This document shows positions 11,839 through 47,477 of a stretch of DNA of 64,000 bases, in pieces. Below the pieces are notes generated by a model that was given only the letters and a program-made list of their open reading frames with translations, had not been told where the DNA came from and did not search any database. The DNA lies in contig NZ_FWFY01000007.1 of the NCBI RefSeq assembly GCF_900172345.1, positions 62,001 to 126,000 of the forward strand, in the 5' to 3' direction. The stretch is from Limimaricola soesokkakensis (GTDB lineage: Bacteria; Pseudomonadota; Alphaproteobacteria; Rhodobacterales; Rhodobacteraceae). The translations under genes and the position numbers were made by a program. Positions within the stretch are counted from its first letter, which is position 1. Each line of letters opens with the position of its first letter.

Positions 11839-12501
11839 TCACCCCTTGAGCAGCCGTAGTCCCTGGGTGACGTCGGTTCGCACCGCCAGCCGCAGCCCCG
11901 GCTCGTCTCCAGCCCGGAGCGCCGCGAGGATCAGCTTGTGATGATAGGGCGGCTCGGTGCGCCGCAGCCGCCCGTAGAGCGCCCGCATGGTGGGGCCGAG
12001 CTGCAGCCAGACGGTTTCGGTCATGGCAAGGATCGCAGGCGACTGGGCCCGCAGGTAGAGCGTGCGATGAAATTCGAGATTCATGCGGATATAGCCGGTG
12101 GCGTCGTGCCGGGCGACCATCTGGCTGACCCCTGCATTGATCGCTTCGAGCCGGTCGATCAGCGCGAAATGCGCCCGTGGCAGCGCCCGCGACGCCAGTT
12201 CCGGCTCGAGCATGGCGCGCAGCGCCGCCAGTTCCTCGATCCGTTCGTTGGTGAGCGCCGGCGTCGCGACACGGCCCGAGGAGGAGAGCGACAGTGCGCC
12301 CTCGGCCACCAGCCGTCGCACCGCTTCGCGGGCGGGGGTCATCGACACCTCGAACAGCTTGCCGATGCCGCGCAGCGTCAACGATTCACCGGGCGCGATC
12401 TCGCCATGCATGATGCGGGTCCTGAGCGACCGGTACACCCGGTCATGCGCGGCCCCGGTGGGGTCGGGGGCGCGGGGAGTAGCGACGGCGGGCGGGATCA
12501 C
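11839..12501 (-). CDS. GntR family regulator, FadR/FCD subfamily
   Basis: The 220-residue protein has an N-terminal winged helix (residues ~18-85: VYRSLRTRIMHGEIAPGE, TPAREAVRRLVAEGAL). The all-helical FCD ligand domain carries the metal-binding pattern of the family (MNLEFHRTLY and the late YHHKLILAALRAGD). FCD regulators usually sense carboxylic acids. Its start overlaps the stop of the YgjP-like gene by 4 bp (ATGA), so the two are translated together. Confidence 0.88.
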   Translation of the reverse strand: MIPPAVATPRAPDPTGAAHDRVYRSLRTRIMHGEIAPGESLTLRGIGKLFEVSMTPAREAVRRLVAEGALSLSSSGRVATPALTNERIEELAALRAMLEPELASRALPRAHFALIDRLEAINAGVSQMVARHDATGYIRMNLEFHRTLYLRAQSPAILAMTETVWLQLGPTMRALYGRLRRTEPPYHHKLILAALRAGDEPGLRLAVRTDVTQGLRLLKG

Positions 12502-13208
12502 GTGGTGGCTCCGGCGGGGGCCGTGAAATCGATCCGCTGCAGCGCGTCACCATGCAGCCGCAGCCAGTCGCGCGCGGCGCGGTGCTGCGGGAACAGTTGC
12601 TCGCACACCGCCCAGAAGGCGGGCGAATGGTTCATCTCGGCCAGATGCGCGACCTCGTGGGCGGCGACGTAATCGCCGATCTCGGGCGGCGCCATGACCA
12701 GCCGCCAGGACAGCATGATGTCGCCCTTCGAACTGCACGATCCCCAGCGCGAGCGGGTGTCGCGAAAGCTCAGCCGCCCGGTGCGGCGGCCCAGCGCGGC
12801 GGCGTGGCGGTCCACGGCAGCCGAGAGGCGATCGCGGGCGCGGGCCTTGAGGAAGGCCATCGCGCGCGCCGGCGCGCGCGCTGCGTCATCGGGCAGGAGC
12901 AGCACCCGGCCCTCGAGCCGCGGGCTGTGCAGGGCGGCGGGACGCAGCGCGATTTCCTCGCCCAGATAGGGCAGCGAGCCGCCCAGCCGCACCGCGCGCG
13001 GCGGCGCCACCCGTTCGAGGTGACCGCGCACCCAGGCCTCGCGTTCGCGCAGGAAGGCCAGCGCTTCACGCTCGGGCGTGCGGCGCGGCAGGGTCAGCGT
13101 CACCCGCCCGTCGCGATGCGAGACCCGCAGCGTGATTCGCCCCGCCCGATCGGAGCGGCGCAGCGCCACCGTCAGGGGCGGGTTGCCTGGCAGCACGTGT
13201 TCACCCAT
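12498..13208 (-). CDS. YgjP/SprT-like zinc metallopeptidase domain protein (DUF45)
   Basis: The 236-residue protein has the DUF45 layout. A beta-rich N-terminal region with VTLTLPRRTPEREALAFL is followed by the strictly conserved RDTRSRWGSCSSKG block and an HEVAHLAEMNHSPAFW zinc motif (HExxH plus downstream His). The family is assumed to be a metal-dependent hydrolase; its physiological substrate is not established. It is first in an operon with the GntR regulator. Confidence 0.85.
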   Translation of the reverse strand: MGEHVLPGNPPLTVALRRSDRAGRITLRVSHRDGRVTLTLPRRTPEREALAFLREREAWVRGHLERVAPPRAVRLGGSLPYLGEEIALRPAALHSPRLEGRVLLLPDDAARAPARAMAFLKARARDRLSAAVDRHAAALGRRTGRLSFRDTRSRWGSCSSKGDIMLSWRLVMAPPEIGDYVAAHEVAHLAEMNHSPAFWAVCEQLFPQHRAARDWLRLHGDALQRIDFTAPAGATT

Positions 13209-17880: not shown

Positions 17881-19125
17881 TCACAGATCCATCAGCAGCC
17901 GGCGCGGATCCTCGAGCGCTTCCTTGACGCGCACGAGGAAGGTCACCGCGCCCTTGCCGTCGACGATGCGGTGATCGTAGCTCAGCGCCAGATACATCAT
18001 CGGCCGGATCTCGACCTTGCCGTTGATCGCCATCGGACGGTCCTGGATCTTGTGCATGCCGAGGATGCCCGACTGCGGCGGGTTCAGGATCGGCGAGGAC
18101 ATCAGCGAGCCGTAGACGCCGCCGTTGGAGATGGTGAAGGAGCCGCCCTGCATGTCGGCCATGCTGAGCTTGCCGTCGCGCGCCTTCACGCCCATCTCGG
18201 CGATCGACTTCTCGATTTCGGCAAAGCCCATGCTGTCGGCGTTGCGGATCACCGGCACCACGAGGCCGGTGGGGGTGCCCACCGCGATGCCCATGTGGAC
18301 GTAGTTCTTGTAGACCACGTGATCGCCGTCGATCTCGGCGTTGACGTCCGGGACCTCCTTGAGCGCGTGCACGCAGGCCTTGGTGAAGAAGGACATGAAG
18401 CCGAGCTTCACGCCGTGCTTCTTCTCGAACAGCGCCTTGTACTCGTTGCGCAGCTCCATCACCGCGGTCATGTCCACCTCGTTATAGGTGGTCAGCATCG
18501 CGGCGGTGTTCTGCGCCTCCTTGAGGCGGCGGGCGATGGTCTGGCGCAGACGGGTCATCTTGACCCGCTCCTCGCGGTCGGCGTCGTCCGACGACACCGG
18601 GCCGCGCGCGGCGGGCTTGGAGGTTTCGGCGGCCTTGGGCGCGTTGAGCGCCTTCAGCACGTCTTCCTTCATCACCCGGCCATCCTTGCCGGTGCCCTTG
18701 ACATCGCCTTCCTTGAGGTTGTTCTCGGCCATCAGCTTCTTGGCCGAGGGCGCATCCTCGGTGTCGCCCTTGGCTTCGCCCTTTTCGGCGGGTTCGCCCT
18801 TGGGATCGCCCGAGACGTTGGTCGCCGCCTGCTGCTCCTTGGGGCCGTCCTCGGCCGGCGCCTCGGGCTCGGACTTGGCGGGCGCGTCGCCCTCGCTCAC
18901 CTGGGCGAGCAGCGCGTCGACACCGACGGTGTCGCCTTCGGCTGCGACGATCTCCGACAGCGTGCCGGCGACGGGCGAGGGCACCTCGACCGTGACCTTG
19001 TCGGTTTCCAGCTCGCACAGCATCTCGTCCACCGCGACGGCGTCGCCCGGCTTCTTGAACCAGGTGGCGACGGTCGCCTCGGTGACGCTTTCGCCCAGGG
19101 TGGGGACGCGGACTTCGGTGCTCAT
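17881..19125 (-). CDS. sucB: 2-oxoglutarate dehydrogenase E2 (dihydrolipoyl succinyltransferase)
   Basis: The 414-residue protein has one lipoyl domain with the lipoylated Lys in [11 protein letters not shown]. An acidic Ala/Glu/Pro linker (residues ~80-130) leads to the peripheral-subunit-binding domain ([11 protein letters not shown]). The catalytic domain ends with the active-site block [15 protein letters not shown]. It transfers succinyl groups to CoA. It sits 2 bp downstream of sucA and co-transcription is near certain. Confidence 0.96.
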
Positions 19126-19127
19126 TC

Positions 19128-22091
19128 TCAGTTTCCTTCGATGCTCAGCGCTTCGTTCACCAGCGCTTGCTGTTGGGTCTTGTGCTGGCTGGCGAGGCCG
19201 GTCGCGGGCGAGGCGCTCGCATGGCGGCCGACATAGGTGGGGCGCTTATGCGCGGCGTCGATCCGGCTCAGCACCCATTCGATGTTGGGCTCGATGAAGT
19301 TCCAGGCACCCTGGTTCTTGGGCTCCTCCTGGCACCAGACCATCTCGGCGCCCTTGAACCGCTCCAGCTCCTTCACGAGGCTCAGCGCCGGGAAGGGATA
19401 GAACTGCTCAATCCGCATCAGGTAGACATCGTCCAGCCCGCGCGCGTCGCGCTCCTCGAGCAGGTCGTAATAGACCTTGCCCGAGCACATCACGACGCGC
19501 TTGATCTCGCTGTCGGGCTTGAGCTGGGTATCGCTGTGGCCCTTCTCGGCGTCGTCCCACAGCACACGGTGGAAGGACGAGCCGGTGGTGAAGTCCTCGG
19601 CGTCCGAGATCGCCATCTTGTGGCGCAGCAGCGATTTCGGCGTCATCAGCACCAGCGGCTTGCGGAAGGTCCGGTGCAGCTGCCGGCGCAGGATGTGGAA
19701 GTAGTTCGCCGGGGTCGAGCAGTTGGCGACGATCCAGTTGTCCTGGCCGCACATCTGCAGGAACCGCTCCAGCCGCGCCGAGGAGTGCTCGGGGCCCTGG
19801 CCCTCGTAGCCATGCGGCAGCAGCATCACGAGGCCCGACATGCGCAGCCACTTCGATTCACCCGAGGAGATGAACTGGTCGAACATGATCTGCGCGCCGT
19901 TGGCGAAATCGCCGAACTGCGCTTCCCACATCACCAGCGCGTTGGGTTCGGCCAGCGTGTAGCCGTATTCGAAACCCAGCACCGCGTATTCGGAGAGCAT
20001 CGAGTCGATGACCTCGTAGCGGGCCTGGCCTTCGCGGATGTTGTTGAGCGGGTAGTAGCGCTCCTCGTTCTCCTGGTTGATGAAGGCCGAGTGGCGCTGC
20101 GAGAAGGTGCCGCGGGTGCTGTCCTGGCCCGAGAGCCGGACCGGGTAGCCCTCGGTCAGGAGCGAGCCGAAGGCCAGCGCCTCGGCGGTGGCCCAGTCGA
20201 AGCCCTTGCCGGTCTCGAACATCTGCCCCTTCGCCTCGAGCAGGCGCGAGACGGTGCGGTGCAGCGGGAAACCCTCGGGCGCACGGGTGAGCGCGCGGCC
20301 GATCTCGGTCATCGTCTTTTCGTCGATCGCGGTCTGGCCGCGCTGGTAGCTCTCGTGGTCGCGCCGGTCGAGATGGCTCCAGCGTCCGTCGAGCCAGTCG
20401 GCCTTGTTCGGGCGATAGGCCTTGCCGGCCTCGAACTCCTCGTTGAGCAGCGACTGGAACTGCGCCTTCATGTCCTCGATCTCGCCCTCGGGGATCAGCC
20501 CGTCGCGGACCAGCCGCTCGGTATAGAGGGTAAGCGTGGTCTTCTGGCTCTTGATCTTCTTGTACATCACCGGGTTGGTGAACATGGGCTCGTCGCCCTC
20601 GTTGTGACCGAAGCGTCGGTAGCAGAAGATGTCGATCACCACGTCCTTGTGGAACTTCTGCCGGAACTCGGTCGCCACCTTGGCGGCGTGCACCACCGCC
20701 TCCGGGTCGTCGCCGTTGACGTGGAAGATCGGCGCCTCGACCATCAGTGCGATGTCGGTCGGGTAGGGCGAGGAGCGCGAGAAATGCGGCGCGGTGGTGA
20801 AGCCGATCTGGTTGTTCACCACGATGTGGATCGTGCCGCCGGTGCGGTGGCCGACGAGGCCCGACAGGCCGAAGCCCTCGGCCACGACGCCTTGGCCCGC
20901 GAAGGCCGCATCGCCATGCAGCAGCACCGGGATCACCTGGGTGCGCTCGGTGTCGCCGAGCTGGCTCTGCTTGGCGCGCGCCTTGCCGAGCACGACCGGG
21001 TTCACCGCCTCGAGGTGAGAGGGGTTCGCGGTCAGCGACAGGTGCACCTTGTTGCCGTCGAACTCGCGGTCCGAGGAGGCGCCGAGGTGGTACTTCACAT
21101 CGCCCGATCCATCGACTTCCTCGGGCTTGAAGCTGCCGCCCTGGAATTCGTGGAAGATCGCCCGGTAGGGCTTTTGCATGACGTTGGCGAGCACCGAGAG
21201 GCGGCCGCGATGCGGCATGCCGATCACGATGTCCTTCACGCCGAGGCTGCCGCCGCGCTTGATGATCTGCTCCATCGCCGGGATCAGCGCCTCGCCGCCG
21301 TCGAGGCCGAAGCGCTTGGTGCCCATGTACTTGACGTGAAGGAATTTTTCGAAGCCCTCGGCCTCGACCAGCTTGTTGAGGATCGCCTTGCGGCCTTCCT
21401 TGGTGAACTGGATCTCCTTGCCGTAGCCCTCGATCCGCTCCTTCAGCCAAGCCGACTGCTCGGGGTCGGAGATGTGCATGTATTGCAGCGCGAAGGTGCC
21501 GCAATAGGTGCGCTTCACCAGCGCCAGGATCTCGTTCATCGTCGCGATCTCGAGGCCGAGCACGTTGTCGATGAAGATCGGCCGGTCCATGTCGGCCTTG
21601 GTGAAGCCGTAATTCGCAGGGTCGAGCTCGGGATGCGGCGTCTGCTCGCGCAGGCCCAGCGGATCGAGATCGGCGGCGAGATGGCCGCGGATCCGGTAGG
21701 CGCGGATGATCATCAGCGCGCGGATGCTGTCGAGCACGGCGGCGCGCAGCTGCTGCTCGGACAGGCCCACGCCCTTCTCGGCGGCCTTGGCGGCAATCTT
21801 GTCGCGCGCGCCCTTGGCTTCGGCAGGCGCGGCCCACTGCCCGTCGAGCGCGGCCGTCAGGTCGTCATTGGGCTGCATCGGCCAATCGGCGCGGGCCCAG
21901 GAGGGGCCGGCGGCCTCGGCACGGGCATCCGAGCCGCTGTCGCCGAGGCTGCGGAAGAACTCCTGCCAGGCCTCGTCGACGCTCGACGGGTTCTCGGCAT
22001 AGCGCGCGTGAAGCTGTTCGATGTAGTCGGCGTTCGTGCCCTGCAGGAAGGAAGAGGCGTGGAACACGTCGTTGGGGCTTTGCTCGGTCAT
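19128..22091 (-). CDS. sucA: 2-oxoglutarate dehydrogenase E1 component
   Basis: This is the thiamine-diphosphate decarboxylase subunit of the 2-oxoglutarate dehydrogenase complex. The 987-residue protein starts [20 protein letters not shown] and has the short N-terminal E2-binding helix ([13 protein letters not shown]), DPLGL, the GMPHRGRL active-site motif, [13 protein letters not shown] near the ThDP site, and a C-terminal transketolase-like half with MWEAQFGDF and [15 protein letters not shown]. The start at 22091 was chosen over an upstream in-frame codon because the added ~25 residues fall in intergenic sequence. Confidence 0.97.
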
Positions 22092-22166
22092 GGCAGGATC
22101 CTTGATCCTCGGGGCAAAAACTGGGGATGCGCCGGGCCCAGATAGGGCGCGCGGCGCGGATGTCAT

Positions 22167-22201: not shown

Positions 22202-23083
22202 TCAGCCGATCGCCTTGAGCACGGCTTCGCCGAGCGAGGCGGGGCTGTCGGCGACCACGATCCCGGCGGATTTCATCGCCTCGATCTTGCTCTCCGCGTC
22301 ACCCTGACCGCCCGAGACGATCGCGCCCGCGTGGCCCATGCGGCGGCCCGGAGGGGCGGTGCGCCCGGCGATGAAACCGGCGGTCGGCTTCCAGCGGCCG
22401 CGCTTCTTCTCGTCGGCCAGGAACTGCGCCGCCTCTTCCTCGGCGGTGCCGCCGATCTCGCCGATCATGATGATCGACTGGGTCTCGTCATCGGCGAGGA
22501 ACATCTCGAGGATGTCGATATGCTCCGAACCCTTGATCGGGTCGCCGCCGATGCCCACGGCCGTCGACTGGCCAAGGCCCGAATCCGAGGTCTGCTTGAC
22601 CGCCTCGTAGGTCAGCGTGCCCGAGCGGGACACGACGCCCACCGAGCCGCGCTTGTGGATGTGGCCGGGCATGATGCCGATCTTGCAGGCGTCGGGGGTG
22701 ATGACACCGGGGCAGTTCGGCCCGATCAGCCGGGTCTTGGAGTTCAGAAGCGCCCGCTTGACCTTCATCATGTCGAGCACCGGGATGCCCTCGGTGATGC
22801 AGATCACCAGCTCCATCTCGGCGTCGATCGCCTCCATGATGCTGTCGGCCGCGAAGGGCGGCGGCACGTAGATGACCGACGCGTTGGCTTCGGTCTTAGC
22901 CTTGGCCTCGTGCACGCTGTCGAACACGGGCAGGTCGAGATGGGTCTGGCCGCCCTTGCCCGGGGTGACGCCGCCGACCATCTTGGTGCCGTAGGCGATC
23001 GCCTGCTCGGTATGGAACGTGCCCTGCGAGCCGGTCAGGCCCTGACAGATGACCTTGGTGTTTTCGTCGACGAGAATCGCCAT
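22202..23083 (-). CDS. sucD: succinate-CoA ligase, alpha subunit
   Basis: The 293-residue protein begins [24 protein letters not shown], with the CoA-binding Rossmann fold, then GVTPGKGG and GPNCPGVI. It has the phospho-histidine region ending [20 protein letters not shown], where the His in GHAGA is phosphorylated during catalysis. With SucC it converts succinyl-CoA to succinate with nucleotide triphosphate synthesis. It starts 5 bp after the sucC stop. Confidence 0.97.
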
Positions 23084-23088
23084 TGCTG

Positions 23089-24282
23089 TTACCCCTTCAC
23101 CGCTTTGACGATCTTCTCGGCGGCGTCGGACAGGTTGTCCGCCGCGATCACGTCGAGACCGGAATTGTTGATGATCTCCTTGCCCTGATCGACATTCGTC
23201 CCTTCGAGACGCACGACCAGTGGCACTTGCAGACCGACTTCCTTGACGGCCGCGATCACGCCCTCGGCGATGACGTCGCAGCGCATGATGCCGCCGAAGA
23301 TATTGACCAGGATGCCTTTGACGTTCTGGTCGGAGGTGATGATCTTGAAGGCCTCGGTGACCTTCTCCTTGGTCGCGCCGCCGCCCACGTCGAGGAAGTT
23401 GGCCGGTTCCGCGCCCTTGAGCTTGATGATGTCCATCGTCGCCATGGCGAGGCCCGCGCCGTTCACCATGCAGCCGATCTCGCCATCGAGCGCGATGTAG
23501 TTCAGGTCGTATTTCGAGGCGGCCAGCTCCTTGCTGTCCTCCTCGGTTTCGTCGCGCAGGGCGGCGATGTCGTCATGGCGGTAGATCGCGTTGCCGTCGA
23601 AGCCCATCTTGGCGTCGAGGCATTTCAGATCACCCTTGTCGGTGACGATCAGCGGGTTGATCTCCAGCATCTCCATGTCCTTCTCGACGAAGAGACGGTA
23701 GAGCGTGTCCATCAGCTTGACGCACTGCTTGACCTGCTGGCCCTTGAGGCCGAGGGCAAAGGCGATGCGGCGGCCGTGATAGGGCTGGTAGCCGGTGGCC
23801 GGATCGACCGAGAAGCTCAGGATCTTCTCGGGCGTCTTCTCGGCGACCTCCTCGATGTCCATGCCGCCCTCGGTCGAGCAGACGAAGGAGATGCGCGAGG
23901 TGGCGCGGTCGACCAGCAGCGCGAGGTAGAGCTCGGTCTCGATCTCCGAGCCGTCCTCGATGTAGATCCGGTTGACCTGCTTGCCCGCCGGACCGGTCTG
24001 GTGCGTGACCAGCGTGCGGCCGAGCATCTTCTTGGCTTCCTCGGCCGCCTCCTCGACGGAGCGGGCCAGGCGGACGCCGCCCTTCTCGCCGGCATCGGCT
24101 TCCTTGAAGCTGCCCTTGCCGCGGCCGCCGGCGTGGATCTGCGCCTTCACCACCCAAAGCGGGCCGTCGAGTTCGCCAGCCGCGGTTTTCGCCTCTTCGG
24201 CGCGCATGACGGGCCGCCCGTCCGAGACGGGCGCGCCGTAGCTGCGCAGAAGGGCCTTGGCCTGATATTCGTGGATGTTCAT
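23089..24282 (-). CDS. sucC: succinate-CoA ligase, beta subunit
   Basis: The 397-residue protein has the N-terminal [16 protein letters not shown], an ATP-grasp domain with [15 protein letters not shown], and a C-terminal ligase domain with [20 protein letters not shown] and RLEGTNV. The start at 24282 is the family-standard MNIHEYQ; upstream in-frame codons belong to the promoter region. A paired GTGATCAC element lies ~110 bp upstream at 24377-24411. Confidence 0.97.
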
Positions 24283-24604
24283 GGACCGGTCCTCGGTTGC
24301 CGTGATTTGGCCCCTTGAACCATATCGAAACCTACAAAAGAACCGGTTTGTCGGAACGCGGCCCAGAAATGCGACCAACGTGATCACAAGAAAAAATCAT
24401 GTGATCACGTTTGGATCGATCATGATCGTTTTATTCAGGGCGCACCTCCGCGCTGGCAAAAACCCGCCTGCGCAACATCTGGAAAGAACCGAGCTGGGAG
24501 GTCATTTTGCCCCCTTCAACCGCCGAAGATTCGGGGCCCCTGCCGATGCAGGCTACGCCTGCTCTCGCTTCGAAGGATTTCCGGCGGTCCCCGAACCGGA
24601 CCGC
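24283..24604. other. sucC upstream region / end of glycosyltransferase
   Basis: This 322-bp interval holds no gene. It contains the paired GTGATCAC element (24377-24411), AT-rich sequence around it, and two hairpins near the glycosyltransferase end: GCAGGC/GCCTGC at 24548-24562 and GCGGTCC/GGACCGC at 24584-24604. The latter probably terminates the glycosyltransferase transcript, and a sucC promoter would lie between about 24290 and 24400. Confidence 0.5.
24377..24411. promoter_or_regulatory. paired GTGATCAC element upstream of sucC
   Basis: Perfect 12-base arms AACGTGATCACA and TGTGATCACGTT flank an 11-base AT-rich spacer. Each arm contains the palindrome GTGATCAC, and the two palindrome centres are 21 bp apart. 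The element occurs again, with the same 21-bp spacing, upstream of sdhC at 30200-30230. Confidence 0.65.
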
Positions 24605-25450
24605 TCAGATGACCCGGCGCTTGAGATTGCCCAGAAAGCTGCGCCATCCCGTTCGGTGCGGCGTCGGCGCGACCGGCGCGCCGCCGGTGACCGGGGCGTA
24701 GTGGGTCAGGGTCTGATCGTTGTCGAGGAACTCGGCCAGCTTGGCGACCTGCGGCGGGGCCAGAACCTCATCCGGCGAGAAGGGGCGGAGCGGGTCGCCC
24801 GCGGGCTTCTGGTGCAGCTTGGGCTCATGAAGCAGGCGAGGCGCGGTATAGCCATTGCCGTTCAGCATGAAGGGGCGGAAGAACATGACATTGTATTCCA
24901 CCGGCAGCACATGCAGCCGAAGATCGCCCTCGTAGAGCAGCACCCGCAGCGCCGGCTGGTCGAACTTCTGGGTGCCGTCATGCACCATGGCATGCCAGTC
25001 CTCCAGAAAGCGGTCGGTCGCGGCGTTGCGCCGGATCGCCATCACGCCGCCATTCATCTGCGGAAAGGCCGGCGGCACCGGATGGCCCGGATACTGCTCG
25101 CGATTTCGGTAGTCGTTGCGCCGCTGGCTCGCCGTCACGGCGATATCGAAGCGGTCGAGAATGTCGAATACGTCGTCGAGCGGCGCCAGCGTGACGATGT
25201 CGGCATCGAGATAGATGGTCCGCGCGAATCTCGAACGCTGCAGGGATTCCATCTTGGGTCGGCGGGACACCTGTTCGAGAAGGTGAACCCGGTCGAAGAC
25301 CTCGTCTTCGAGGGGCGCGTCGGTGAAGAGGTCGATCTTCACCGAGGGCATGACCCCCCTGAGGTTGCGCGCCGCGCGCCGGGCGAGGGTGACATAGTCC
25401 TTGCCGGTCACCGCGAAAACGAAACCGCGGTCGAGGTCTTGATCCGTCAT
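24605..25450 (-). CDS. glycosyltransferase-like protein with DxD motif
   Basis: The 281-residue protein resembles nucleotide-sugar transferases of the GT-A fold. The N-terminal half reads VFAVTGKDYVTLARRAARNLR and IDLFTDAP, with a TIYLDADIVTL motif whose DxD (Asp-Ala-Asp) would bind metal and nucleotide sugar. A later MNGGVMAIRR and FDQPALRVLLY resemble the acceptor-side loops of GT8-like and GT77-like enzymes. Donor and acceptor are unknown. It is unusual to find it between mdh and sucC; the 57-bp gap to mdh holds a strong hairpin. Confidence 0.7.
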   Translation of the reverse strand: MTDQDLDRGFVFAVTGKDYVTLARRAARNLRGVMPSVKIDLFTDAPLEDEVFDRVHLLEQVSRRPKMESLQRSRFARTIYLDADIVTLAPLDDVFDILDRFDIAVTASQRRNDYRNREQYPGHPVPPAFPQMNGGVMAIRRNAATDRFLEDWHAMVHDGTQKFDQPALRVLLYEGDLRLHVLPVEYNVMFFRPFMLNGNGYTAPRLLHEPKLHQKPAGDPLRPFSPDEVLAPPQVAKLAEFLDNDQTLTHYAPVTGGAPVAPTPHRTGWRSFLGNLKRRVI

Positions 25451-25469
25451 CTGCGCCGGGGTCCTTGCT

Positions 25470-25495
25470 GGGGCGGGCCCGGTATGGCCCGCCCC
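25470..25495 (-). terminator. hairpin after mdh
   Basis: GGGGCGGGCC and GGCCCGCCCC form a perfect 10-bp stem around CGGTAT, 13 bases beyond the mdh stop on the minus strand. There is no T-run, so attenuation between mdh and the glycosyltransferase is the likely effect. Confidence 0.5.
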
Positions 25496-25507
25496 GGAGG
25501 CCTACGA

Positions 25508-27863
<2,356 letters not shown>

Positions 27864-28046
27864 CGTTCCAGAACCTTTCGTCCTTCCGGGTTCCGCGCCG
27901 ATCCGGTTCGGATGCGCTACCCGTTACGAAAGTTGAACACGTGGTGTGGGCACGGGTTGCATGGCAGGAACGAATTTTTTTCACTCTGGGCGCGGGTAGC
28001 TGAAACCGGCGCAACCCCGAGGGCAAAACAAGCTGTTTTCAGCCAC

Positions 28047-28352
28047 TCAGGCATTCGGATCCGTCGGGGCGAGGCGCTCGTCGAGCGGCTCGTATGCCTG
28101 CCCTGCCGCCAGGAGGCAGCTTTGTCCGTCGGCGCGGGTGACCAGCAGCGTCCAGCTTCCCGTGTCGTCCGAGGCGAAGACCTCGACGACCTGATTCGCG
28201 CCGTCGAGCGCGATGGCCTTCCGGCTTTCTCCGTAGCGTTCCGCCAACTGCGCGACGATCGCGTCATGCGCGCCGCAGCGTGGCATCGCGGCCGCGGGCA
28301 GGGCGAGCGCACAGAGCGGCAGCGAGAACAGCATCGTCCGGATCGGGTCCAT
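28047..28352 (-). CDS. small exported hypothetical protein
   Basis: The 101-residue product starts MDPIRTMLFSLPLCALALPAAAMP, a signal peptide with a likely cleavage after the Ala run. The mature part has two Cys (PRCGAHDAIVAQLAERYGES and QSCLLAAG) that may form a disulfide. It reads as a small beta-rich domain with VVEVFASDDTGSWTLLVT. I have the impression that similar proteins are widespread in Rhodobacteraceae, but I know no function. The start at 28352 is preceded by GGAGACACCC; a codon 12 residues upstream is less likely. Confidence 0.65.
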   Translation of the reverse strand: MDPIRTMLFSLPLCALALPAAAMPRCGAHDAIVAQLAERYGESRKAIALDGANQVVEVFASDDTGSWTLLVTRADGQSCLLAAGQAYEPLDERLAPTDPNA

Positions 28353-28493
28353 GGGTGTCTCCTCGGTATCGGGCAGCCTTTCAGTCATCGGACAGCCTGC
28401 CGCTTTCCGGCGAAGATGCGGTTAACGGTGCCACCGTTGCGCCCGAGGTCGCGGCGCTGCACTCTCCGAGTGGTCCATTCCAGGAGGCCTGCC

Positions 28494-29333
28494 TTGCCGA
28501 TCCGCTCCCTTCTCTACGTGCCCGCCTCGAATGCCCGCGCGCTGGAAAAATCTCGCTCCCTGTCATGCGACGGCGTGATCATCGATCTCGAGGATGCGGT
28601 CGCGCCGCAGGCAAAGGCGGCCGCTCGCGCGGCGCTGCCCGCCGCCCTGGAGGGGGGCGCGGGCCGTAACCGGCTGCGGCTGGTGCGGATCAACGCGCTG
28701 TCGAGCCCCTGGGGCCAAGACGATCTCGTCGCGCTGGGCGGTCTCGGTTGTGACGGGGTTGCGGTGCCCAAGGTGTCCGGACCGGCCGATCTCGATGCGG
28801 TGGCCGCGCGCTGCGATCTGCCGCTCTGGGCGATGATCGAGACGGCGCGCGGCGTGCTGTCGGCGCCCGCGATCTGCGGGCATCCCCGCCTCGCCGGGGT
28901 GATCATGGGGACCAACGATCTCGCGCGCGAACTGGGCGCGAGACCGCGCGCCGACCGGATGCCGCTCTGGACCGCGCTACAAGGCGTGCTGCTCGCGGCG
29001 CGTGCCGCCGGGGTGCCGGCGATCGACGGCGTGTGCAACGCGCTCGATGAGCCCGAGCGCTTTGCCGCCGAATGCGTGCAGGGGCGCGACATGGGCTTCG
29101 ATGGCAAGAGCCTGATCCACCCGGCCCAGATCGCCGCCGCCAACGCGGCCTTCGCACCGAGCGCCGACGAGATCGACCTGGCGCGGCGCCGCATCGCCGG
29201 CTTCGAGGCCGCGCAGGCGGCGGGGCAGGGGGTGGCGGTGGTCGATGGCGAGATCGTCGAGGCGCTGCACGTGGAGACCGCCCGCAAGACCTTGGCCCTC
29301 GCCGAGCGGATCGCAGCGGAAGTGGACGCATGA
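28494..29333 (+). CDS. HpcH/HpaI-CitE family CoA-ester lyase or hydrolase
   Basis: The 279-residue TIM-barrel protein is of the citrate lyase beta/malyl-CoA lyase family: RSLLYVPASNARALEKS at the N-terminus, DGVIIDLEDAVAP (metal-binding Glu/Asp), MIETARGVL (catalytic Glu) and GTNDLARELG, then GFDGKSLIHPAQI. I chose the TTG start at 28494 because AGGAGG lies six bases upstream; longer frames run into unrelated sequence. Likely substrates are malyl- or citramalyl-CoA. The stop overlaps the next gene (ATGA). Confidence 0.85.
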   Translation: MPIRSLLYVPASNARALEKSRSLSCDGVIIDLEDAVAPQAKAAARAALPAALEGGAGRNRLRLVRINALSSPWGQDDLVALGGLGCDGVAVPKVSGPADLDAVAARCDLPLWAMIETARGVLSAPAICGHPRLAGVIMGTNDLARELGARPRADRMPLWTALQGVLLAARAAGVPAIDGVCNALDEPERFAAECVQGRDMGFDGKSLIHPAQIAAANAAFAPSADEIDLARRRIAGFEAAQAAGQGVAVVDGEIVEALHVETARKTLALAERIAAEVDA

Positions 29334-29881
29334 CGGCGCTTGTCCTCGGGCTGGCGTTGTGGAGCGCGGCGCATCTGATGCCGCGCCTCGCGCCCAGGCT
29401 GCATGCCCGGCTGGGCAGCTCCGCGCGCGGGGTCGTGGCGGGGCTGGTGCTGCTCGGGCTGCTGTTGATGATCTTCGGCTACGGCGCTTGGGACGCGGCC
29501 CAACATCACGTGCCCGCCCCGTGGACGCGCCACCTCAACAACCTGATGATGCTGGTCGCCGTCTATCTCTTCGCCGCCTCGGGGCTGAAGACCCGCGTCG
29601 CCGCCGCGCTGCGCCATCCACAGCTTTTCGCGGTGACGCTCTGGGCAGGGGCGCATCTGCTGGCCAATGGCGACTGGGCCTCCTTCGTGCTATTCGGAGG
29701 GCTCGGGCTCTGGGCCGTGATCGAGATGGCGCTGCTCGACGTCCGCGCCCCCGTTCCGCACTTCGCGCCCTCTACCAGGGCGCGCGAAGTACGGGCCGTG
29801 ATCGGCGGGGTGGTGGTTTTCATCCTGATCGGGCTGGTGCATGGCTGGATCGGACCCAACCCATTCGGAGCCATGTCATGA
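29330..29881 (+). CDS. NnrU family membrane protein
   Basis: The 183-residue integral membrane protein has about six hydrophobic segments. Its NnrU/isoprenoid-type signature comprises WSAAHLMPRLAP, HLNNLMMLVAVYLFA, RHPQLFAVTLWAGAHLLANGD and ALLDVRAPVPHFAP. NnrU was first linked to denitrification in Rhodobacter, but homologues are widespread and their activity is not settled. It is coupled at both ends by ATGA overlaps to the CoA lyase and to the DUF1737 gene. Confidence 0.85.
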   Translation: MTALVLGLALWSAAHLMPRLAPRLHARLGSSARGVVAGLVLLGLLLMIFGYGAWDAAQHHVPAPWTRHLNNLMMLVAVYLFAASGLKTRVAAALRHPQLFAVTLWAGAHLLANGDWASFVLFGGLGLWAVIEMALLDVRAPVPHFAPSTRAREVRAVIGGVVVFILIGLVHGWIGPNPFGAMS

Positions 29882-30081
29882 AGATCTACCGCTTTCTCAC
29901 CGGGGACGACACCTCGGCATTCTGCCACAAGGTGACCGAGGCCCTGTCGAAGGGCTGGGAGCTTTATGGCGAGCCTAGCTACGCCTATGACGCCGCCAAT
30001 GGCGTGATGCGCTGCGGCCAGGCCGTCACCAAGGAGGCGGATGTCGACTATTCCGCGGATCTCAAGCTCGGCCAGCTCTGA
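29878..30081 (+). CDS. DUF1737 domain protein
   Basis: The 67-residue protein with MKIYRFLTGDDTSAFCHKVTEAL and KGWELYGEPSYAYDAANGVMRCGQAV is typical of DUF1737, a small family of unknown function. It overlaps the NnrU stop by four bases and is probably the last gene of the three-gene unit. Confidence 0.8.
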   Translation: MKIYRFLTGDDTSAFCHKVTEALSKGWELYGEPSYAYDAANGVMRCGQAVTKEADVDYSADLKLGQL

Positions 30082-30199
30082 GCCGGCTTCGAGACCACCT
30101 CGGGACGAGGCGGATCGCCGCAGCGGCTGGGCCGGGGAATCGCCGCCTCTATATGAGGCGCATGTCGGTCACTCGCAGCGCAGCCCGCATGGAAGCTCC

Positions 30200-30230
30200 C
30201 GTGATCACAGTCTTGAGGACTGTGATCACG
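30200..30230. promoter_or_regulatory. paired GTGATCAC element upstream of sdhC
   Basis: Perfect 13-base arms CGTGATCACAGTC and GACTGTGATCACG surround TTGAG. The two GTGATCAC palindromes are centred 21 bp apart, exactly as in the sucC element at 24377-24411. It lies ~140 bp upstream of the sdhC start. Confidence 0.65.
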
Positions 30231-30370
30231 CCCGGCATTTTCCCGCCTGATTTGGCGAATTTCCCACGGCTTTCAGCGAAGGCATGGGTGACAGACGGTC
30301 CAAAATCGCTAGGGATAAGCCAGCCGGGGCCGCCCGAGGGCCGGCCCGCACGCCAGATAAGGACGACGCC

Positions 30371-30754
30371 ATGGCCGATGTGAACCGGGGCAACCGCCCG
30401 CTTTCGCCCCATATCACGATCTACCGACCGCAGCTCACCTCGATCACCTCGATCCTGACGCGGATCACCGGCAACGCGATGATCGTCGCCGCCGCCTTGA
30501 TCGTCTGGTGGTTCGCCGCCGCCGCCGCCGGGCCCGAAAGCTTTGCCACCGCCGACGGTTTCCTGCGCAGCTGGTTCGGCGATCTGGTGCTGTTCTTCTC
30601 GGTTCTGGGCCTGTGGTACCACACGCTCGCGGGCATCCGGCATCTGATCTGGGACGAGGTGAAGATGCTCGAGATCGACAAGGCCGAGTTGCTTGGCCAG
30701 ATCATCCTGATCGTCTCGGTCCTGCTGACCATCTTCACCGTCGTCGTTCTCTGA
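30371..30754 (+). CDS. sdhC: succinate dehydrogenase cytochrome b556 subunit
   Basis: The 127-residue, three-helix membrane anchor of complex II starts MADVNRGNRPLSPHITIYRPQ, with SILTRITGNA (quinone-binding Ser/Arg region) and the haem-ligand motif WYHTLAGIRHLIWD. With SdhD it binds haem b and ubiquinone. It is first in the sdh operon. Confidence 0.95.
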   Translation: MADVNRGNRPLSPHITIYRPQLTSITSILTRITGNAMIVAAALIVWWFAAAAAGPESFATADGFLRSWFGDLVLFFSVLGLWYHTLAGIRHLIWDEVKMLEIDKAELLGQIILIVSVLLTIFTVVVL

Positions 30755-31150: not shown

Positions 31151-32956
31151 ATGGCAGCCTACGAATACGAGACCCACGAATACGACGTGGTGGTGGTCGG
31201 CGCCGGTGGCGCGGGCCTGCGCGCCACGCTCGGCATGGCCGAGCAGGGCCTGCGCACCGCCTGCATCTCCAAGGTCTTCCCGACCCGCTCGCATACCGTC
31301 GCGGCGCAGGGCGGCATCGCCGCCTCGCTTGGAAACATGGGCCCCGACAGCTGGCAGTGGCACATGTACGACACGGTGAAGGGCTCCGACTGGCTCGGCG
31401 ATACCGATGCCATGGAATATCTCGCTCGCGAGGCCCCCAAGGCGGTCTACGAGTTGGAGCATTACGGAGTGCCCTTCTCGCGCACCGAGGAGGGCCGGAT
31501 CTACCAGCGCCCCTTCGGTGGCCACACCACCGAGTACGGCGAGGGCCCGCCGGTGCAGCGCACCTGCGCCGCCGCCGACCGCACCGGCCACGCGATTCTG
31601 CACACGCTCTATGGCCAGTCGCTCAAGCAGAAGGCCGAGTTCTACATCGAGTATTTCGCCATCGACCTGCTGATGGACGATGACGGCACCTGCCGCGGCG
31701 TTCTGGCGTGGAAACTCGACGACGGCACGATGCACGTCTTCGCCGCCAAGACCGTGGTTCTGGCGACCGGCGGCTACGGACGGGCCTACTTCTCCGCAAC
31801 CTCGGCCCATACCTGCACCGGTGACGGCGGCGGCATGGTGGCGCGGGCCGGACTGCCGCTGCAGGACATGGAGTTCGTGCAGTTCCACCCGACCGGCATC
31901 TATGGCGCGGGCTGCCTGATCACCGAAGGCGCGCGCGGCGAAGGCGGCTATCTCACCAACTCCGAGGGCGAGCGCTTCATGGAGCGCTACGCGCCGACCT
32001 ACAAGGATCTCGCCTCGCGCGACGTGGTCTCGCGCTGCATGACCATGGAGATCCGCGAGGGCCGCGGCGTCGGCAAGGATGGCGACCACATCCACCTGCA
32101 CCTCAACCATCTGCCGCCCGAGACCCTGGCCGAGCGCCTGCCCGGCATCTCGGAATCGGCGCGCATCTTCGCGGGCGTCGACCTGACGAAAGAGCCGATC
32201 CCGGTGCTGCCGACCGTGCATTACAACATGGGCGGCATCCCCACGAACTACTGGGGCGAGGTGCTCAATCCGACGGCCGAGAACCCCGACGCGGTGACGC
32301 CGGGCCTGATGGCGGTGGGCGAGGCGGGCTGCGCCAGCGTTCACGGCGCCAACCGTCTCGGCTCCAACTCGCTGATCGACCTCGTGGTGTTCGGCCGTGC
32401 CGCGGCGATCCGGGCACGCGAGGTGGTCGATCCGGCGACCTCTGTGAAGGCTCCGGCCAAGGCGTCGATCGAGAAGGCCTTCGATCGTTTCGACGGTCTG
32501 CGCCATGCCAAGGGCGATGTGCCGACCGCCGAGCTGCGACTCGAGATGCAGCGCAACATGCAGGCCGATGCGGCGGTGTTCCGCACCGACAAGACCCTCG
32601 CGGAAGGCATGCAGAAGATGCAGGCCACGGCGGCGAAGATGGACGACATCCATGTCACCGACCGCAGCCTCGTGTGGAACTCGGACCTGATGGAGACGCT
32701 GGAACTCGCCAACCTGATGCCCAACGCGCTGGCTACCATCACCGCCGCGGAGGCGCGCAAGGAAAGCCGCGGCGCTCATGCGCACGAGGATTATCCTGAT
32801 CGGGACGACGAGAACTGGCGCAAGCATTCCCTCGCCTGGATCGAGGGCAACACCGCGCGGCTCGACTATCGCCCGGTGCATCTCGACCCGCTGACCAAGG
32901 CGGAAGAGGGCGGCATCGATCTCAAGAAGATCGCGCCCAAGGCGCGGGTCTACTGA
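31151..32956 (+). CDS. sdhA: succinate dehydrogenase flavoprotein subunit
   Basis: The 601-residue FAD protein oxidises succinate to fumarate. It shows [16 protein letters not shown] (FAD binding), the SHTVAAQGG block with the covalent flavin His, [21 protein letters not shown] (active site), [10 protein letters not shown] and [19 protein letters not shown]. Length and motif order are those of bacterial complex II. Its TGA overlaps the next gene's ATG. Confidence 0.97.
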
Positions 32957-33249
32957 TGCGCCCGGCGCTGTTCCTGGCGCTGGCGCTGCCGCTGCTGGCA
33001 GGGGCCTGTATGCAGGCCCCGCTCTCGCCGCTCGACGCGGCGCGGGTCTGCGAGGAGCGCGCGCGCGCCGCGCAGGGCCCCACCGGCAGCGTCAGCGTCG
33101 GCGCCAGCTCGCGCAGCGGCCTGTCCTCGGGTATCTCGATCGGGGTGACCGACGACTACCTGCGCGGTCGTGACCCCTACGAGGTCTACGAGGACTGCGT
33201 CGTGGCCCGCAGCGGTCAGGCGCCGGTACGGCCACCGCGCCTCAGATGA
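32956..33249 (+). CDS. small putative lipoprotein within the sdh operon
   Basis: The 97-residue protein starts [20 protein letters not shown], a signal peptide with the lipobox LAGAC giving an N-terminal lipidated Cys. The mature part is Ser/Gly-rich ([12 protein letters not shown]) with paired Cys in RVCEERAR and [10 protein letters not shown]. It shares TGATG with sdhA and lies between sdhA and sdhB. I do not know a function; the position hints at a link to complex II or simple co-expression. Confidence 0.7.
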
Positions 33250-33313
33250 TCCAGATCCATGCGACGACGACCGGGGGCACGACCCCCGGCGCTTTCCCCA
33301 AGGAGACCTGACC

Positions 33314-34093
33314 ATGGTCCAGCTCACCCTTCCGAAGAACAGCCGCATCACCCATGGCAAGACCTGGCCCAAGCCCGAGGGCGCGACCAACTTGCGCAAG
33401 GTGCAGATCTATCGCTGGAACCCCGATGACGGGAAGAACCCGCGCGTCGATACCTATTTCGTCGATGTCGACAGCTGCGGGCCGATGATTCTCGACGCTC
33501 TGATCAAGATCAAGAGCGAGATCGACCCGACCCTGACCTTCCGCCGCTCCTGCCGCGAGGGGATCTGCGGCTCCTGCGCAATGAACATCGACGGCATCAA
33601 CACGCTGGCCTGCACCTATGGCCTCGACGAGGTGAAGGGGGACATCAAGATCTATCCGCTGCCGCATATGCCGGTGGTCAAGGACCTGATCCCCGACCTG
33701 ACCCATTTCTACGCCCAGCATGCGAGCATCAAGCCGTGGCTGGAGACCGAGACCAACACCCCAGCCAAGGAGTGGCGCCAGTCGATCGAGGACCGCAAGA
33801 AGCTCGACGGCCTCTATGAATGCATCATGTGCGCGTCCTGCTCGACGGCATGCCCCTCCTACTGGTGGAACGGCGATCGCTATCTCGGGCCGGCCGCGCT
33901 GCTGCATGCCTATCGCTGGATCGTCGACAGCCGCGACGAGGCCACTGGCGAGCGGCTCGACGATCTCGAGGACGAGTTCAAGCTCTACCGCTGCCACACC
34001 ATCATGAACTGCGCCAAGACCTGCCCCAAGGGGCTGAACCCGGCCAAGGCGATCCAGTCGATCAAGCACATGATGGTCGAGCGCGCCGTATGA
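33314..34093 (+). CDS. sdhB: succinate dehydrogenase iron-sulfur subunit
   Basis: The 259-residue protein carries all three clusters: the [2Fe-2S] motif [15 protein letters not shown], the [4Fe-4S] [12 protein letters not shown], and the [3Fe-4S] region [17 protein letters not shown]. It passes electrons from SdhA to the quinone site. The start at 33314 follows AGGAGACC. The stop overlaps the DUF1989 gene (ATGA). Confidence 0.97.
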
Positions 34094-44752: not shown

Positions 44753-45874
44753 TCACTCCGCCGGTTCGGTCTTGCGGGCGGGCTTCGGCGCCGGCCTCAG
44801 CCTCAGGAACATCGCCTCGAGCGGCATCCGCACCATGTTGTCGAGCGCGCCGGTGAAGAGGATCACGAGCGCTTGGATCACCACGATCAGTTCGCGCGGG
44901 ATCGAGGTCCAGAGCGCCAGCTCGGCGCCGCCCTGATAGAGAAATCCGAACAGGAGTGCGGCGAGCAGAACGCCGAAGGGATGGCTGCGGCCCATCAGGG
45001 CCACTGCGATTCCGATGAAACCGGCGCCCTCGACGGCGTTGAGCACCAGACGCTCGGCCTCGCCCATGACGTTGTTGATCGCCATCATGCCCGCCAGTCC
45101 GCCGGACATCAGCATGGTCACGACAATGATCCGGGTGGGCGAGATGCCCGCGTATTTCGCGGCCGATTCAGACTGGCCGAAGGCACGGATCTCGTAGCCG
45201 AGCCGGGTGCGCCAGATCAGCGCCCAGACCGCGACGCAGGCCAGAAGCGCCACGAAGAACGACACGTTGACCGGCGCGCCACGGAACAGCGCCGTCTCGG
45301 CGGTCGAGAACATGTCCTGGAAGGTCGGCAGATGCGTGGCTTCGGGGAAGCGGCCCGTGGCGGGCTCCATCGAGCCCGAGGGCTTGAGTGCGCCGATCAG
45401 CAGGTAGTTCAGAAGCGCCGCGGCGATGAAGTTGAACATGATCGTGGTGATCACGATATGGCTGCCGCGCTTGGCCTGCAGCCAGGCCGGAATCAGCGCC
45501 CAGGCCGCGCCGAACAGCGCCGCGCCGACCGCGCCGCCCAGGAGTGCGAGGCTCCAGTGCGGCCACGGGATGAAGAGCGCGATCAGCGCCACGCCGAGGC
45601 CGCCCAGCATCGCCTGTCCCTCGCCGCCGATGTTGAACAGGCGCGCATGGATGGCGATCGCCACGGCGAGGCCGGTGAAGATGAAATTGGTGGTGTAGTA
45701 GAGCGTGTAGCCCCAGGCATAGGTCGAGCCGAGCGAGCCCTCGACCATCAGCTTCAGCGCGGCCCAGGGGTTCTCGCCGATGGCGAGGATCACCAGGGCC
45801 GAGAGCAGGGCGGCAAGGATCAGGCTGATCAGTGGGATCAGCACGACATCCGCCCATTGCGGCATCTTCTGCAT
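44753..45874 (-). CDS. BMP-type ABC transporter permease, first subunit
   Basis: The 373-residue permease is of the NupP/YufP type. Motifs include IHARLFNIGGEGQAMLGGLG and ISPTRIIVVTMLMSGGLAGM. The start at 45874 has AAGGAGG upstream and trims 13 residues of an alternative earlier start that would overlap the ATPase gene. It pairs with the 43777 permease. Confidence 0.9.
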   Translation of the reverse strand: MQKMPQWADVVLIPLISLILAALLSALVILAIGENPWAALKLMVEGSLGSTYAWGYTLYYTTNFIFTGLAVAIAIHARLFNIGGEGQAMLGGLGVALIALFIPWPHWSLALLGGAVGAALFGAAWALIPAWLQAKRGSHIVITTIMFNFIAAALLNYLLIGALKPSGSMEPATGRFPEATHLPTFQDMFSTAETALFRGAPVNVSFFVALLACVAVWALIWRTRLGYEIRAFGQSESAAKYAGISPTRIIVVTMLMSGGLAGMMAINNVMGEAERLVLNAVEGAGFIGIAVALMGRSHPFGVLLAALLFGFLYQGGAELALWTSIPRELIVVIQALVILFTGALDNMVRMPLEAMFLRLRPAPKPARKTEPAE

Positions 45875-45875
45875 C

Positions 45876-47477
<1,602 letters not shown>

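Follow-up and report, generated by a model that had tools for sequence, protein, structure and literature searches.

Which protein reads the two-palindrome element that stands in front of two tricarboxylic acid (TCA) cycle genes, sucC and sdhC, in Limimaricola soesokkakensis? Both copies lie in a 64,000-nucleotide stretch of DNA (contig NZ_FWFY01000007.1, positions 62,001 to 126,000; here called the window). We conclude, with a probability of roughly 0.88, that the elements are paired operators of an AkgR orthologue, AkgR being a GntR-family transcription activator with an FCD domain. This reading draws on the pair, its spacing, its conservation, its targets, its co-occurrence with the regulator gene and its phase to the sdhC promoter, all found in the sequences, and on the published account, in the excerpts available, of AkgR as an activator with the palindrome GTGATCAC among its sites in Rhodobacter sphaeroides.

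By sequence match, each putative AkgR operator pair has the form GTGATCAC-N13-GTGATCAC, where N13 is a 13-base spacer. Upstream of sucC the pair occupies 24380..24408 on the minus strand (single palindromes at 24380-24387 and 24401-24408), 97 bp from the sucC ATG at 24282, and upstream of sdhC it occupies 30201..30229 on the plus strand (palindromes at 30201-30208 and 30222-30229), 141 bp from the sdhC ATG at 30371. The palindromes are embedded in perfect inverted repeats whose arms are 12 bp at sucC (AACGTGATCACA, 24377-24388 and 24400-24411, loop AGAAAAAATCA) and 13 bp at sdhC (CGTGATCACAGTC, 30200-30212 and 30218-30230, loop TTGAG). The initial annotation had described this element, and its coordinates, its arms and the centre-to-centre distance of 21 bp at both places were confirmed. 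The observation is real: the window contains five copies of GTGATCAC against 0.91 expected, a count reached by none of 100 shuffles, and in all 3.94 Mb of the genome there is an exact pair at sucC and sdhC only, not at the random positions that had been considered as a counter-case. Base composition predicts about 0.0003 exact pairs genome-wide, and a reversed-pattern control gave none. Allowing two mismatches added two further places, both within long open reading frames (ORFs). The fifth GTGATCAC in the window, at 45447-45454, is unpaired, lies within a permease ORF (BPD_transp_2, 44753-45913, minus strand) and is probably there by chance.

The pair is conserved across the family, as was found in the scan of relatives for 21-bp pairs that had been proposed with the original observation. 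An exact pair with a spacer of 0 to 30 bases occurs in 175 of 198 family genomes, and an N13 pair with at most one mismatch occurs in 172 of 198 (reversed control, 0 of 198). Among the exact pairs listed, most spacers are N13 and some N12, with a few others (such as N5, N10, N19 and N23) elsewhere. In the upstream regions first compared, the pair preceded sucC in 52 of 52 cases and sdhC in 33 of 33 (N13 75 times, N12 10 times), most of these loci having been fetched because they carried the pair; genomes picked for lacking it were added later and are absent from these counts. With them, 23 sucC and 15 sdhC rows have no pair pattern, including one (L248, from genome G040; G and L numbers are our handles for genomes and loci) that has a one-mismatch pair. 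In 80 loci fetched solely by homology to akgR, all 13 usable sucC regions carried the pair. The regions first compared contained no pair upstream of mdh (0 of 19) or sucA (0 of 59), after dropping rows whose match started after residue 25 or that had less than 150 bases upstream; this filter removed L073, where a pair does precede sucA. In the class at large, an N9 to N17 match was found in 9 of 289 genomes, four of them in the same family.

Is the element bound as DNA, or does it fold as RNA? Inverted repeats in a leader could form attenuator or terminator hairpins, and the perfect 12- and 13-bp arms in the window would suit such a structure. We computed the site anatomy over 50 sucC and 33 sdhC regions. 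At sucC, the first and last spacer bases (positions 1 and 13) could pair with each other in 31 of 43 cases, a non-random figure that a hairpin could also claim; at sdhC the number is 12 of 30. The inner positions (2-4 versus 10-12), in contrast, are complementary as often as chance predicts (34 of 129 at sucC and 22 of 90 at sdhC), and the scans found no terminator-like site at either place. Furthermore, at sdhC the pair precedes the promoter motif, and a transcript from that promoter would not contain the pair. Hairpins were therefore rejected, and we regard them as very improbable. The complementarity of positions 1 and 13 at sucC implies instead that each palindrome extends to TGTGATCACA, and we read the element as a protein site with this palindrome rather than a stem. 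The sucC spacer tends to begin with A and end with T and has a T-rich middle, the rest being variable, and the outer flanks are T-rich before the pair and A-rich after it, strongly at sucC (A in 98, 88 and 94%) and more weakly at sdhC. The initial annotation had held that the spacing is kept while the spacer is not, and that a protein contacts two sites on one helix face; the first point holds in the N12 and N13 pairs at sucC and sdhC, whose spacers differ, and the second is supported by the sequence tests on spacer, spacing and sdhC promoter distance.

Next, we asked which protein this would be. In the available part of a 2019 paper, GTGATCAC is identified among the sites bound by the R. sphaeroides activator AkgR (PMC6365646). 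The excerpt of a 2015 network paper gives the GntR-family protein RSP_0981 as the predicted regulator of RSP_0967-6, 0974-6 and 0965-62, that is, of genes for succinyl-CoA synthetase (sucCD), succinate dehydrogenase (sdh) and 2-oxoglutarate dehydrogenase (sucAB) (PMC4344238). The part of PMC11323563 that we retrieved names AkgR in its reference list only. The motif, which had gone unrecognised when the element was first described, was thus already in print, and AkgR, one of two regulators named at that time, gains by it. RSP_0981 we take to be AkgR. In the original AkgR study, AkgR is reported to activate TCA-cycle genes directly, in line with the term activator used in PMC6365646. The other regulator named was CceR, a LacI-family carbon regulator. 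In its favor, the excerpted network predictions list sdh and mdh among the targets of CceR (RSP_1663) in R. sphaeroides, but its predicted motif is another inverted repeat, [AGT]GTT-N6-8-AAC[ACT] (PMC4344238). That motif has no strict match at 22 to 36 kb of the window and a single relaxed match, at 24346 near sucC, and mdh lacks the pair in all 19 regions. CceR was rejected on the differing motif and the missing strict match at 22 to 36 kb, and it is very improbable as the binder. CRP/FNR sites have the form TGTGA-N6-TCACA; a site of this type was rejected because the half-sites in both pairs abut without a spacer.

The AkgR reading needs a regulator gene, and the window contains a candidate. 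Of the 17 GntR genes with an FCD domain in the genome, one lies in the window: the candidate akgR (11842..12501, minus strand, 220 amino acids; protein P0001), located past sucCDAB and an ORF resembling dihydrolipoamide dehydrogenase. A regulator of Limimaricola sp. G21655-S1 matches P0001 with 100% identity. P0001 had no NCBIfam match above the cut-off; its PDB matches are distant GntR proteins and were not used in any conclusion. We infer that it is the AkgR orthologue. Orthologues were defined by a best E value under 1e-70, and no genome fell between 1e-60 and 1e-79. Among 174 good genomes (completeness 90% or more, contamination 5% or less), the pair and a P0001 orthologue occur together in 155, 15 have neither, two have the pair only (G019 and G114) and two have the gene only (G040 and G155, both with one-mismatch pairs), giving a Fisher probability of 1e-17. 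Counted by hand in all 198 genomes, the numbers are 171, 19, 4 and 4. In the 19 genomes with neither, 16 sucC and 14 sdhC regions could be read and contained no pair; the best matches there had 3 to 7 and 5 to 7 mismatches (shuffle mean, about 6). On a 40-row sucC tree the state of the pair changes at least six times, or twice on trusted, well-supported branches alone. The genome thus encodes a GntR/FCD protein whose orthologues co-occur with the site, with G019, G096 and G114 as exceptions. In G051, the P0001 orthologue (80% identical) lies about 750 bp past sdhB, a position that would suit the locus tags of R. sphaeroides, where 0981 comes after sdh 0974-6.

Could another of the 17 FCD proteins recognize the pair? 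Related GntR proteins seem to share the palindrome: PS417_07240, the regulator of a deoxyribonate cluster in Pseudomonas simiae, is 32% identical to AkgR and is proposed to bind GTGATCAC in the excerpt of PMC6365646, and in G344 a GntR/FCD ORF follows a pair. A paralogue could likewise serve the three genomes that have pairs and no good P0001 match. However, of the two paralogues tested (the family-wide co-occurrence covered P0001 and P0002), P0001 tracks the pair better: P0002, a PdhR-like paralogue, was rejected as the binder because 34 genomes with the pair have only a weak match to it (E above 1e-60), versus 4 such genomes for P0001. Moreover, a suc gene lies within a flank of up to 10 kb in 59 of 80 P0001-homology loci, which are close relatives, and the start of the P0001 orthologue itself carries the palindrome in many genomes. 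Another GntR/FCD regulator is therefore unlikely, though less so than CceR or a hairpin, and the AkgR orthologue is preferred.

The palindrome at the akgR start was counted in relatives. An intact GTGATCAC stands at the start of the P0001 orthologue in 82 of 112 loci (some redundant), and in 80 loci from named records it lies within 100 bp of the akgR start in 60. In 59 of these 60, a same-strand ORF ends shortly before the palindrome and an in-frame ATG follows 0 to 12 nucleotides after it, mostly 8 to 11. The palindrome thus sits over the likely ribosome-binding region of akgR, and for this reason autorepression is suggested: these positions suggest that AkgR may repress its own synthesis.

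The distance between the pair and the promoter was analyzed as well. Downstream of the sdhC pair there is a conserved GTGACA...TAnnAA promoter (24 aligned). In the window, the -35-like hexamer GTGACA lies at 30288..30293 on the plus strand, 58 nucleotides after the pair (locus L062, 20.5 bits), and the putative -10-like hexamer TAGGGA at 30310..30315 was placed by the relatives' consensus. Promoters were scored leave-one-out with a weight matrix trained on 38 sdhC promoters with GTGAC at 57 to 60; the limit of 8 bits for the phase count was set post hoc and was passed by 43 of 53. The -35 lies 57 to 61 nucleotides after the pair in 37 of the 43, the other six are shifted by +9, +10, +11, +12, +19 and +21 bp, and none is at a half-turn position (p = 0.003 against simulated random shifts of 4 to 35 bp either way). 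The ten promoters below the limit had best offsets of 57 (L034), 57 (L312), 58 (L231), 60 (L081), 48 (L077), 47 (L292), 39 (L314), 9 (L013), 8 (L007) and 160 (L014). Thus, the sdhC promoter apparently stands at a constant distance from the pair or is displaced by roughly one or two turns of the helix in relatives. At sucC, a weaker, sampled 34-base motif lies at offset 28 (19 of 65) or 37 to 40 (35 of 65), about one turn apart, with 11 scattered. Because a single insertion or deletion could explain this difference and the -10 assignment is unsure, we do not rely on the sucC phase and claim no phase across the two genes.

Several observations weigh against the AkgR reading. Three genomes, G019, G096 and G114 (91, 77 and 100% complete), have perfect pairs and no P0001 match above 38% identity, all candidates having been scored. 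A fourth exception, G033, has an orthologue only 49% identical and retains the sucC pair but not the sdhC pair. At most 15 candidates per genome were scored for P0001 and 12 for P0002, so an orthologue could have been missed where more existed. The association itself is inflated by shared descent, because the control P0002, an unrelated regulator, also correlates with the pair (p = 3e-7), and a sign test on the sucC tree had only two well-supported independent contrasts and no power (P0001 changed the same way 1.6 times on average and the opposite way 0 times). The window akgR lacks an intact palindrome at its start and has a one-mismatch copy, GTGATCCC, at 12494..12501 on the minus strand; here a YgjP-like metallopeptidase ORF (12498-13208, minus strand) overlaps the akgR start by 4 bases, whereas many relatives have a gap between the two genes, with the palindrome inside it. 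Both window pairs also lack the TTT and AAA flanks frequent in relatives, and plain promoter scans found nothing, the sigma-70 scan giving no hit at the sdhC -10-like hexamer.

Given these caveats, we propose that one AkgR dimer would bind each palindrome, so that centers 20 to 21 bp apart would place two dimers next to each other on the same face of the helix. To judge from this geometry, the dimers probably bind cooperatively, and the AkgR pair may contact RNA polymerase at the promoter beyond in a phase-dependent way. AkgR would then activate the sucC and sdhC promoters, and the two TCA-cycle operons would rise together; the single site that many relatives have ahead of the akgR start codon, after the end of the upstream gene, would let AkgR restrain its own synthesis. 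There is about an even chance that AkgR acts from about 100 bp before the sdhC start site as a rigid activator module of two dimers, with selection keeping its geometry (20 to 21 bp between dimers, whole turns to the promoter) and tolerating only insertions of about one helical turn or a multiple of it; the pair would then be the activating unit and the single akgR site the brake. These results name a likely protein for a promoter element conserved across a large bacterial family and suggest that the control of sucC and sdhC is coupled throughout it. In addition, the natural series of promoters with whole-turn shifts offers test material for activation by a paired GntR regulator.

Further palindromes were seen in other settings. 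Triple palindromes in 21-bp steps occur in G135 and G191 and, with a mismatch, in G197 and G177. The G177 pair at L073:6933-6961 precedes sucA rather than sucC, as if retained with the operon promoter through a rearrangement. G042 has a third N13 pair (L018:1501-1529) before fumC, the lyase domain starting about 160 bp past it (Pfam Lyase_1, FumaraseC_C), and the regulon may therefore take in more of the TCA cycle. An unpaired GTGATCAC lies, in 5 of 20 relatives, within about 85 bp of a DUF1737 match between mdh and sdhC (L068:8726, L072:10692, L074:8847, L076:8393 and L082:9281), possibly a further target. Pairs with N7 or N23 spacers and the common letters CATCGC(T/C)TGTGATCAC occur at unrelated places: L229:1501-1523 (G107, same genus), L037:1501-1539 (G042) and L228:1501-1523 (G125), the last inside an adenine-deaminase-like ORF. 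Two genomes of another family, G211 and G344, carry pairs next to TonB-receptor Plug genes. In G344 (L195:992-1028) the GntR/FCD ORF starts 7 bases after the pair, which suggests that an operator of this form serves a different regulator there; the palindrome may therefore belong to a wider GntR branch.

The operons themselves are ordered as follows. On the minus strand, sucC, for the succinyl-CoA synthetase beta subunit (23089..24282), is followed by sucD (22202-23083), sucA (19128-22166) and sucB (17881-19125). On the plus strand, sdhC (30371..30754) is followed by sdhA (31151-32956) and then sdhB, within the ORF at 33170-34093.

The observation is largely explained by the known AkgR motif, and the motif itself is not new. 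The closest known system is the AkgR regulon of R. sphaeroides (RSP_0981, presumably AkgR), which, in the published excerpts, shares the palindrome GTGATCAC, an activator of the GntR family and the sucCD and sdh targets. Measured here, in comparison, were the tandem pairing at 20 to 21 bp, the family-wide conservation, the promoter phasing and the site at the akgR start. The 20- to 21-bp lock and the sdhC promoter distance in whole turns apparently add to what is in print; among the papers listed in our literature searches, none was seen to treat the spacing within the pair or the phase to the promoter, and the original AkgR paper may contain it. PS417_07240 shares the palindrome as its proposed site; it differs in that the palindrome occupies -47 to -40 relative to the predicted start codon of PS417_07240 itself, the pathway is another one, and the excerpt mentions no pair. 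CceR of Rhodobacter has overlapping predicted targets in central carbon metabolism, again as far as the excerpt goes, but belongs to the LacI family and has a different operator, unlike the GntR candidate proposed here.

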